DNA from: a virus
Virus record (IMG/VR): IMGVR_UViG_3300047202_000025
Span: 1-42,352 of that record
Reading direction: 5' to 3' (one strand)
Length of the DNA stretch: 42,352 nt
Under the pieces are notes generated by a model. The model worked only from the letters and a program-made list of their open reading frames with translations. It ran no database searches and was not told where the DNA came from. How positions within the stretch are numbered: the first letter of the stretch is position 1; each line of letters begins with the position of its first letter. Shown piece after piece: positions 20,475-23,406 of the stretch. The position numbers and the translations under genes were made by a program.

Positions 20475-20764
20475 AAATGTTTCAGTGGCTTACCGCCTCT
20501 TTATTTCCTTATTTACAGCGTCCCCCCTCCCCGGTCTCTTGCCTCAACGTCCTATAACTATTGATGCAACAAGGGGTTATATAAACATATACAACGGGGT
20601 GATATTGGGTGATTATATAATATTGCTGTTAGTACTGTTACAGGGGACTATTAACAACGTCCTATAAAAGAATTTTAACATAATTACAAGATTTTTCTTG
20701 ACTTTGTGGTGAAGATAGGCGATATTATAAACAGGTTAGATAACACTTTTTAGGAGGAAATAGA
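20475..20764. other. Non-coding gap with direct repeat
   Basis: This 290-nt gap carries two exact copies of CAACGTCCTATAA (20545-20557 and 20655-20667), a C-rich stretch (cgtcccccctccccgg), and an A/T-rich segment with GGGTGAT repeats, then a promoter (20698-20728). A 60-codon GTG frame within it (20485-20667) has no Shine-Dalgarno and ends on the second repeat; I do not call it. The repeats could be binding sites or a remnant of recombination. Confidence 0.45.
20698..20728 (+). promoter_or_regulatory. Probable promoter for the 67-residue gene
   Basis: TTGACT (20698-20703) is followed either by GATATT after 17 bases or by TATTAT after 19 bases (ending at 20728). It lies about 37 nt upstream of the ATG at 20765, which has TAGGAGGAAATAG as its ribosome-binding region. 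The -35 and the following TTG match the promoter at 21132. Confidence 0.6.
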
Positions 20765-21131: not shown

Positions 21132-21160
21132 TTGACTTTGTTGGCCTATTTGTGTATGAT
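21132..21160 (+). promoter_or_regulatory. Promoter of the amidoligase cassette
   Basis: TTGACT (21132-21137), 17-base spacer, TATGAT (21155-21160). The AGGAGG ribosome-binding site follows 13 bases later. It drives the 36-residue gene, the amidoligase and the amidotransferase as one unit. It may explain cassette expression independent of the promoter at 14803. Confidence 0.8.
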
Positions 21161-21182
21161 GTAGTCAAATATAGGAGGAAAT

Positions 21183-21293
21183 ATGAAAAAACCTATAAAC
21201 TGTAAAAACTGCCAATATTACAATAAAGAATGTGTCTATCATCAGCCAAAAAAGACCATTCTGGACCAGTGCATAAGATATAAACCAAAATAA
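21183..21293 (+). CDS. Small cysteine-rich protein, 36 residues
   Basis: A short protein, MKKPINCKNCQYYNKEC..., with CKNC, EC and a later Cys, a zinc-knuckle-like pattern seen in small phage proteins. Strong AGGAGG five bases upstream and its own promoter. It ends two bases before the amidoligase ATG, which has no Shine-Dalgarno of its own, so it may work mainly as a translational leader for the cassette; alternatively it is the peptide substrate. Confidence 0.6.
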   Translation: MKKPINCKNCQYYNKECVYHQPKKTILDQCIRYKPK

Positions 21294-21295
21294 CT

Positions 21296-22459
21296 ATGAA
21301 CTGCCCGAACTGTAACGCCAAAACTGCTCAAAACAGGTTATTGAACATATCCGGGACGGACTATTGCCCGGAATGTAGGCCAGAACATATACCTTGTTTT
21401 GGTTGTAATAGTCTGTTTTTGGATAATGACTTAACAGAAATTGACGGCGAATACTACTGTGAAATGTGCCGGGATGAGGAATTTGGGTTTTGCCAACATT
21501 GTGAAAATTTAGTAGCTTTAGATGATTTGCAGGAATTTGACGGAGATTATTATTGTGAAAGCTGTTTTGATGATAATTTTGGCTGTTGTGATGGTTGTAG
21601 TAAAACTTTTTGTAATGACGACTTGAGATACCACCAGGGCCAAGATGGATGTTACTGCGAAAACTGTTATCCGCAAGATAATGAAAATATACATGACCAT
21701 GACTATAAACCACGACTGACTTTTTACAAAAGTGAAAAAGACACTAAAAACCCGTTATTTTTTGGTATAGAGTTAGAAGTCGAATCATACGGCAGCGATT
21801 ATGATTGTATTGTCGGACACCTGCCGGACTGGACATACGCAAAAGAGGACAGCAGTATAAATAATGGTTTTGAAATAGTTACTATGCCGTTTAGCTGGTT
21901 GTGGTATAATGAACACTTAAACGAATTTTCAGCTATGTTGGGACGGTTAAGAAGTAAAAAGTTTAGCAGTTATGAGACCAGCACTTGCGGGATACATATA
22001 CACTTGTCAAAAACAGCATTTTCGACTTTGCACTTTTTTAGGTTTTTAACATTTTTTTACTTAAATGAGGAAAACAAGTCTTTTATCTTGAAAATCAGCC
22101 AGCGTCTTAGAGACCAAATGAATCAGTGGTCGTCTCTGTGGGACACCCAAACAAAAGACTTAGTATATAAAGTGAAAGACGGTAACGATTTTGGACGTTA
22201 TACAGCCGTCAATACTCAAAATAAAAATACTTATGAAGTGCGGATTTTCAAAGGCACTTTGAACCTAAAAAGTTTTTGTAAGAATGTGGAATTTTGTCAA
22301 GCTGTTTATAAATGGACTTTAGAACTTGGAGAAGTTTCGTTATTGGAAAGTCTAAAATCGTTGACAATTGAAAACTTTGTTGACTATGTAAAACGGGAAC
22401 GCAAGGAATACCCGAACCTATTGGATTTTATGGTAAAAAGGAAACTATGTGCCTTATAA
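21296..22459 (+). CDS. Amidoligase-family enzyme with N-terminal zinc modules
   Basis: A 387-residue protein. Residues 1-130 hold CPNC/CPEC, CFGC/CEMC, CQHC/CESC and CDGC/CENC pairs, four treble-clef or LIM-like zinc modules. From ~155 the sequence matches the GCS/glutamine-synthetase-like amidoligase fold: FFGIELEVE (metal-binding Glu residues), KEDSSINNGFEIVTMPF, CGIHIHLSK and NTYEVRIFKG. Such enzymes form amide bonds between a carboxylate and an amine using ATP. It is paired with a class II amidotransferase overlapping it by 13 nt. The likely substrate is a protein or peptide recruited by the zinc modules; that is inference. Confidence 0.82.
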   Translation: MNCPNCNAKTAQNRLLNISGTDYCPECRPEHIPCFGCNSLFLDNDLTEIDGEYYCEMCRDEEFGFCQHCENLVALDDLQEFDGDYYCESCFDDNFGCCDGCSKTFCNDDLRYHQGQDGCYCENCYPQDNENIHDHDYKPRLTFYKSEKDTKNPLFFGIELEVESYGSDYDCIVGHLPDWTYAKEDSSINNGFEIVTMPFSWLWYNEHLNEFSAMLGRLRSKKFSSYETSTCGIHIHLSKTAFSTLHFFRFLTFFYLNEENKSFILKISQRLRDQMNQWSSLWDTQTKDLVYKVKDGNDFGRYTAVNTQNKNTYEVRIFKGTLNLKSFCKNVEFCQAVYKWTLELGEVSLLESLKSLTIENFVDYVKRERKEYPNLLDFMVKRKLCAL

Positions 22460-23190
22460 TAGTAAAACCCCCGGATAAACATATTACACGCAAAGAACTT
22501 TCAAAAGGTTTTCTTGAAAATTCTGATGGTATTGGTTTTATGTTTGTTGCTGATAGGTTGATTGTCAAAAAGGGTTTTACAAGTTTTAGGGATTTCTACA
22601 AGGGGTTTAGAAATTGTGAACGTGAACACCCGAACACCCTATTTGCTGTTCATTTTCGACTTGCAACGCACGGAGATAAGCACGCAATTGATATGATGCA
22701 CCCCTTTGTTGTAAATGATGTTGGAGTTATGCACAACGGTATTTTAAGTAAGTATTGCACACCAAAAAATTCGACAATGAGCGATACAGCTTTATTTTGT
22801 GAAAAGGTTATTGCTGGACTTCCGGCGGGTTGGCTTGCAAATACAGCTATTTTGACATTATTAGAAAACTACGCAAAAGAGGAACACTCAAAATTTGTTT
22901 TTATGAGTAAGGAACACTATTGCATTATAAATGAATCAGCCGGAGAGTGGAAAGACGGTTGCTGGTTTTCAAATAAGCAATACAGTTTTGGCTTTACAAG
23001 GGCATATTTTGGCAAATATACTTATGATGAATATGAAACAGAGGACGAAAAAGAGGAAGGCATTTTACTTTGTGATGTTTGTCAATGTGTAGTTGACCCG
23101 ACCGAGGCCAGGGTTATAGAAGATGCTACATTATGCTTGGATTGTCAAACAGTATTTAAACAGGATAGATGGGATATTGCTACATTATAA
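22447..23190 (+). CDS. Class II glutamine amidotransferase-like protein
   Basis: A 247-residue Ntn-hydrolase relative. Cys2 follows the start Met directly (MCLIIV), as the N-terminal nucleophile requires after Met removal. HFRLATHG (~78), DMMHPFVVND, and GVMHNGIL (~100) match the glutamine-binding and oxyanion elements. A CDVC ... CLDC zinc knuckle ends the protein. It would release ammonia from glutamine, probably for the adjacent amidoligase. It overlaps the ligase gene by 13 nt. Such ligase/amidotransferase pairs have been described in phage and bacterial modification clusters. The substrate is unknown. Confidence 0.85.
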   Translation: MCLIIVKPPDKHITRKELSKGFLENSDGIGFMFVADRLIVKKGFTSFRDFYKGFRNCEREHPNTLFAVHFRLATHGDKHAIDMMHPFVVNDVGVMHNGILSKYCTPKNSTMSDTALFCEKVIAGLPAGWLANTAILTLLENYAKEEHSKFVFMSKEHYCIINESAGEWKDGCWFSNKQYSFGFTRAYFGKYTYDEYETEDEKEEGILLCDVCQCVVDPTEARVIEDATLCLDCQTVFKQDRWDIATL

Positions 23191-23216
23191 ACAAAAAGCA
23201 CTTTTGAGGGGGGAAC

Positions 23217-23271
23217 GCCCGGCACAACAAAACCACAAAACCCTATGTTGGCCTAAAGGTTGATGCCGGGC
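23217..23271. repeat. Inverted repeat GCCCGGC / GCCGGGC after the cassette
   Basis: GCCCGGC (23217-23223) and GCCGGGC (23265-23271) are complementary over 7 bp with a 41-nt loop and lie just after the amidotransferase stop. The right arm is followed closely by GGTATAATA, as is the hairpin at 20991-21010. Together they bracket the amidoligase unit. Confidence 0.55.
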
Positions 23272-23280
23272 TGGTATAAT

Positions 23281-23406
23281 ATGATAAAACGCTTTTTATA
23301 TCGTGCTGAACTTGTTGTAATTGTAGCGGTTTTAGTATGGCTCGCCGGGGTTGAAAACATTTTAAGGGGGATAGCAGAACATTTGCTTAAAATTGTGGGG
23401 AAATAA
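23281..23406 (+). CDS. Small membrane protein, 41 residues
   Basis: Begins MIKRFLYRAELVVIVAVLVWLAG, one transmembrane helix after a basic N-terminus, then an amphipathic C-terminal helix. No Shine-Dalgarno is seen. TATAAT immediately abuts the ATG but lacks a -35. It ends in a TAATG overlap with the YopX gene. Function unknown. Confidence 0.5.
   Translation: MIKRFLYRAELVVIVAVLVWLAGVENILRGIAEHLLKIVGK

Follow-up and report, generated by a model that had tools for sequence, protein, structure and literature searches.

What reaction is carried out by an amidoligase and a glutamine amidotransferase that are encoded side by side in a virus and both carry cysteine-rich zinc modules, and what is its target? 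The question is raised by a locus in the window (the whole stretch of DNA analyzed here, one virus record of 42,352 bp), in which an earlier note had described a promoter, a 36-residue Cys protein, an amidoligase (AL) and a class II glutamine amidotransferase (GAT) as a single unit, with enzymes that may dock on a host target such as the ribosome, RNA polymerase or a cell-wall factor. All four parts are present (Table 1), the promoter by consensus match only. Phage genomes with paired amidoligase and GAT genes have been on record for over 10 years, and Iyer et al. 2009 is reportedly the foundational paper on such pairs; what is added here is a better-defined architecture (conserved zinc arrays) and distribution of an already recognized system. 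The precedent to which the note had pointed is borne out in phages by the amidoligase and GATase genes of MEP401/402 (PMC10580990), phage tf (PMC3517423), UFV-P2 (PMC3890496) and Phage-ZRK32 (PMC10945688).

Table 1. Positions of the locus features in the window
Feature	Position	Strand	Remarks
Promoter-like site TTGACT-17-TATGAT	21132-21160	+	consensus match only, 10/12 positions
Shine-Dalgarno AGGAGGA of 36-aa ORF	21173-21179	+	sequence reading
36-aa Cys-rich ORF	21183-21293	+	stop 2 nt before AL start
Amidoligase (AL), 387 aa, PF12224	21296-22459	+	no Shine-Dalgarno of its own
AL zinc module 1	21302-21376	+	C3/C6-C24/C27
AL zinc module 2	21395-21469	+	C34/C37-C55/C58
AL zinc module 3	21491-21565	+	C66/C69-C87/C90
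AL zinc module 4	21587-21667	+	C98/C101-C121/C124
AL catalytic core	21764-22243	+	G157, E159, E161, D185, S187, E193, H234, H236, R270, E314, R316
Class II glutamine amidotransferase (GAT), 247 aa	22447-23190	+	Cys2 codon 22450-22452; 13-bp overlap with AL
GAT C-terminal zinc module	23071-23145	+	C209/C212-C230/C233

Identity and pairing of the two enzymes

The AL scores above the curated threshold of the Pfam Amidoligase_2 profile (PF12224; 34.5 bits, cut-off 22), and its acidic, His and Arg active-site set (GxExE, HxH, ExR) is complete. All core residues listed in Table 1 are invariant across 78 viral homologues, although the search pattern itself selected in part for E159 and E161 of the GxExE motif, but not for the remaining core residues; the IELEVE and HIH metal residues on which the earlier note had staked its assignment are thus retained at the level of sequence. 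Glutamine synthetase-fold ligases activate a carboxylate using ATP and metal, and it is to the glutamine synthetase/glutamate-cysteine ligase (GCL) superfamily that the AL core belongs by its predicted fold: the AlphaFold (AF2) model (pLDDT 92.4) matches YbdK (7.7e-5), GCL (1.5e-3) and the Pup ligase PafA (3e-3) in Foldseek, and further fold matches are Dop, glutamine synthetase and GmaS (gamma-glutamylmethylamide synthetase). TM-scores are low (0.30-0.37), probably because the model joins the core to the appended zinc array.

The assignment of the second enzyme as a class II amidotransferase of predicted Ntn-hydrolase fold is upheld by a different route from the one first proposed, since its single sequence reaches only 13 bits against the Pfam GATase_6 profile (cut-off 27) and the class is instead indicated by family profile, motifs and fold. 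The strongest match is GlmS both by sequence (5.4e-10 for the family profile) and by predicted fold (AlphaFold/Foldseek, 2.2e-7), followed in fold by EgtC (3.8e-5; probability 1.00 for both folds). The Cys2 nucleophile, the other feature on which the earlier note had made its assignment depend, is likewise retained at the level of sequence, in 97% of 78 sequences, the others being gaps, and H69, R71, H85 and H96-N97-G98 also vary only by gaps; together with H69, R71, T74, H85 and H96-N97-G98 it falls in the range of 97-99% conservation, and D113 is conserved in 92%, so that the Arg (R71), HNG oxyanion (H96-N97-G98) and Asp (D113) residues that bind glutamine are all present. The known proteins that resemble the AL core (GCL, YbdK, PafA) and the GAT (GlmS, EgtC) are like them in fold at a sequence identity of 10-17%; their entries name no tandem LIM-like array, unlike the AL of the window.

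Viral contigs scanned with the single AL or GAT protein as query gave no matches; an alignment-guided search of the same contigs found 162 relatives (80 kept), and one of species genomes found 130 (80 kept). In species genomes a GAT gene follows 80 of the 82 untruncated AL genes, and in viral loci it does so directly in almost every case. The gap between the genes has a median of 3 bp (n = 151 pairs, 28 of which overlap), and distances among ALs correlate with those among GATs (Mantel r 0.48, 0 of 2000 permutations, 37 non-redundant pairs). The pairing is near-obligate and the two genes are co-inherited; this much of the single unit envisaged in the earlier note stands, and its neighborhood comparison bears it out. 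No third gene beside the pair is common to the viral lineages, where recurring neighbors (helicase, exonuclease, terminase) track phage kinship, and PADLOC returned no defense-system match for AL or GAT. In the window the pair lies within a forward-transcribed block, with RecA (18790), a YopX-family gene (23406), DnaB helicase (29186) and primase (30025) nearby.

The number of partners varies at some loci. Two AL paralogues lie near one GAT in most of L017, L020, L021, L037, L066, L069, L073, L085, L128, L133, L135, L136 and L151, of which L017 and L133 contain two AL-GAT pairs each. In L037 the GAT-adjacent AL copy has no zinc array, and the GAT has six CxxC motifs.

LIM-like zinc modules

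Zinc modules are found on both enzymes, as had been claimed: four N-terminal copies in AL with the spacing C-x2-C-x17/19-C-x2-C, and one C-terminal copy in GAT. The 16 Cys residues of AL are invariant in 8 sequences (the window and 7 relatives at 36-41% identity), a degree of conservation that, judged from these divergent sequences, is beyond chance. The number of CxxC motifs varies among relatives, from 0 to 16 in AL and from 0 to 8 in GAT.

By fold and by profile the AL array is LIM-like. Its modules match the LIM pairs of PINCH1 and LMO2 in Foldseek (2e-4 to 1e-3) and LIM arrays in profile comparison (5e-7), and AL scores 22.6 bits against Pfam LIM (PF00412; cut-off 22.9). A LIM domain is defined by two fingers, a two-residue linker and His as the third ligand; in the AL modules the linkers span 6-7 residues and each of the four ligands is Cys, for which reason they are called LIM-like rather than LIM. 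A LIM-type annotation of a phage relative already exists: structural matches in BFVD include an 'Amidoligase enzyme' and a 'LIM domain containing protein' of uncultured Caudovirales phage (A0A6J7X5D3 and A0A6J7X2B6; E 1.7e-27 and 7.1e-19), neither of which comes with a description of function. Because the modules fold like protein-binding LIM arrays, it is plausible that they dock a protein target.

The GAT module, for which 'zinc knuckle' is a loose term, occurs in many relatives and shares the spacing of the AL modules (C-x2-C-x17-C-x2-C), but its profile similarity to them is borderline in the window: a single-module HMM gives 10.1 bits for the best domain against a shuffled maximum of 9.1, whereas the homology of AL and GAT modules is clear for the GATs of L027 (1.6e-7) and L020 (8e-6).

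The AL N-terminus of one phage lineage (L023-L050) is of unchanged length and still shows some repeat-like sequence (e.g. DDxYYWESDGEYH), but almost none of its Cys ligands remain; the GAT beside it retains its own zinc module. The absence of ligands from these ALs suggests that the array is dispensable for catalysis, with the qualification that this is a single lineage and aligns poorly in that region.

Occurrence in phages and integrative elements

Methylophilales phages MEP401 and MEP402 (gp05-06 and gp06-07; PF12224 and GATase_6) have the gene order of the window, with a 10-bp overlap in place of 13 bp, and like the window pair theirs precedes primase, helicase and polymerase; however, identity is only 27% (AL) and 38% (GAT), the AL N-terminus has at most one zinc module, and the GAT has no C-terminal module. 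Mycobacterium phage Marvin resembles the window in having an AL with N-terminal Cys pairs (gp105) followed by a GAT with C-terminal Cys pairs (gp106); its AL is 34% identical over the core and differs by a long C-terminal extension. Marvin gp105 (L004) is annotated as 'glutamine amidotransferase domain', but its sequence is that of an amidoligase. The phiEco32/LUZ24-like system of Pseudomonas phages tf and UFV-P2 likewise combines Amidoligase_2 with a class II GAT, placed in those phages in the early region (PMC3890496, PMC3517423); UFV-P2 has additional PF14395 ligase, ATP-grasp and gamma-glutamyl cyclotransferase (GGCT) genes (PMC3890496). A search of the virus record for GGACT/GGCT domains, with a working control, gave no match; one for PF14395 also gave none, its control being likewise silent, and in both cases the record may be incomplete.

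Beyond phages, the pair occurs in bacterial and other genomes, among them those of gut Clostridia and Ignavibacteria. At 64 of 80 genomic loci the 6 kb around the pair include a gene for a serine recombinase, a tyrosine integrase or a relaxase; a resolvase-family gene is nearby in 18 of 20 loci (17 genomes), where the 321 such genes in 53 Mb of these genomes would predict about 1.6, and MobA/VirD2-type relaxase genes are found at 20 genomic loci. No integrase or resolvase gene was found in the whole virus record of the window. In many Clostridia the recombinase is 3' of GAT on the same strand, at 100-170 bp or ~1050 bp.

The proximity of these genes at 64 of the 80 loci indicates that the cassette also travels on integrative elements and may therefore be regarded as cargo common to phages and mobilizable elements. 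Such carriage disfavors a virion-specific target, and a role confined to capsid or lysis is unlikely on this account; it argues for a target common to both kinds of element, i.e. a host factor, and thereby narrows the search to something that phage and integrative element both encounter in the host. Identity of these genomic relatives to the AL of the window is no more than 25-38%, and their function may for that reason have diverged.

Two observations on individual loci may be added. In gut Clostridia a small serine recombinase of about 180-230 aa begins ~70-170 bp 3' of GAT on the same strand in L097, L100, L101, L103, L105, L107, L115, L121, L123, L125, L129, L138, L145, L148, L150, L151 and others, which suggests a fixed cargo slot for the pair next to the recombinase. 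The contig L091 (JAHPYZ010000033.1, 45,002 bp), labelled as a Lokiarchaeota MAG, is phage-like and has terminase, AL, GAT, an exonuclease-like gene and DnaB in common with the window in identical order; it is either a misbinned phage or an archaeal-host virus.

Possible reactions and targets

The reading that we favor, at a probability of roughly 0.45, is that AL and GAT form a two-subunit glutamine-dependent amidoligase acting on a zinc-held protein. GAT would hydrolyze glutamine through its N-terminal Cys2 and hand the ammonia, presumably by channelling within a complex, to AL, which would activate a carboxylate of the substrate with ATP and metal and then amidate it; the LIM-like modules of both subunits would hold the protein substrate or a scaffold, most likely a host protein bound early in infection. 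What the analysis shows of this is the identity of the genes, their catalytic residues, folds and pairing, and their occurrence both in phages and on integrative or mobilizable elements. Against the ammonia scheme stand the lack of natural AL-GAT fusions among roughly 160 loci and the neighbors of a sister Amidoligase_2 lineage free of zinc modules, which by sequence motif are GGCT-like genes (directly downstream in L173; two beside the amidoligase in L176) instead. Against the zinc-array part of the scheme stands the apparent dispensability of zinc on the ALs of L023-L050.

The GGCT neighbors of the sister lineage fit gamma-glutamyl chemistry better than ammonia supply, and they speak for the main rival, which is rather doubtful in our estimation: AL would ligate a gamma-glutamyl (or other acyl) group to a target amine, as glutamate-cysteine ligase does, and GAT, in place of supplying ammonia, would trim that group or take it off again in the manner of the gamma-glutamyl amidase EgtC. 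GCL and YbdK as structural neighbors of AL, and EgtC as that of GAT, are consistent with such a cycle, as are the same GGCT-type neighbors listed for Tn6164 (PMC3485107) and a class II GAT of phage ctfjg026 (L009:5001-6215) that is fused to a GGACT domain (PF06094, 65.7 bits). It is countered by the fact that the best match of GAT, in sequence and fold, is GlmS, and by the failure to detect GGCT in the window; the conserved GAT residues bind the glutamyl moiety and are compatible with either ammonia supply or gamma-glutamyl removal. Sequence alone does not discriminate between the two.

A further alternative, quite unlikely, is that the substrate is a small molecule, either a metabolite or a precursor of the cell envelope, which the pair amidates or conjugates in an auxiliary metabolic or superinfection-exclusion role, with zinc modules that are only structural or serve subunit contacts. 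Published proposals are of this kind: phiEco32-type amidoligases have been proposed to modify the cell wall against superinfection, the Marvin pair to take part in secondary-metabolite synthesis and that of Phage-ZRK32 in nitrogen metabolism (PMC10580990, PMC10945688); in the excerpts of these papers the roles are put forward as proposals, and no biochemical assay of the enzymes is reported. No substrate of the pair was found reported in the literature. The AL without zinc ligands in one lineage would accord with a small-molecule enzyme, but the presence of at least four LIM-like modules with invariant Cys far exceeds what a small-molecule ligase needs, and no biosynthetic gene recurs as a neighbor of the pair. 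Self-modification, with virion or replication proteins of the phage itself or peptides such as the 36-aa Cys protein as targets, is very improbable, since despite the position of the pair alongside replication genes and of the small Cys ORF immediately 5' of AL, other pairs have no homologue of the 36-aa protein beside them and the pair also adjoins relaxase genes in apparent mobilizable elements.

Returning to the two-subunit amidoligase, an extension of it that is, taken as a whole, unlikely would make the LIM-like arrays of amidoligase and glutaminase a shared docking platform in a phage-born protein-modification machine. Its prey would be one specific host protein, perhaps part of a defense or exclusion pathway, and the machine would be used alike by lytic phages, prophages and mobilizable elements. 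The pair is a clean two-gene system, and the zinc array is a natural bait for finding the target.

The 36-aa ORF, which the earlier note had counted as a component of the unit, drops out of it: no homologue was found beside other AL-GAT loci (best E 0.35), and the protein is by this comparison a local leader outside the conserved cassette. The ORF is preceded by a strong Shine-Dalgarno sequence (TAGGAGGAAATATG), and the GAT start, inside the 3' end of AL, by AAGGA; since AL lacks its own Shine-Dalgarno and begins 2 nt after the ORF, and GAT begins within the end of AL, translation of all three is probably coupled in this virus, with the 36-aa ORF as probable coupling leader for AL. A marginal Pfam score for fungal Zn_clus in the 36-aa protein (21.1 vs 21 bits) was dismissed as noise of Cys composition.

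As to the promoter, a single promoter-like site is weak evidence because shuffled sequences yield 60.1 ± 7.4 such sites, compared with 81 observed in the scan. The site has a near-identical counterpart, the two lying at 20698-20726 and 21132-21160 (TTGACTTTGT...), 5' of a 67-aa ORF (20765) and of the 36-aa ORF (21183), respectively. A pattern built from both has 2 matches against 0.03 expected, these being the very sites from which it was derived; judged by their sequences, the two sites perhaps represent one phage promoter class.
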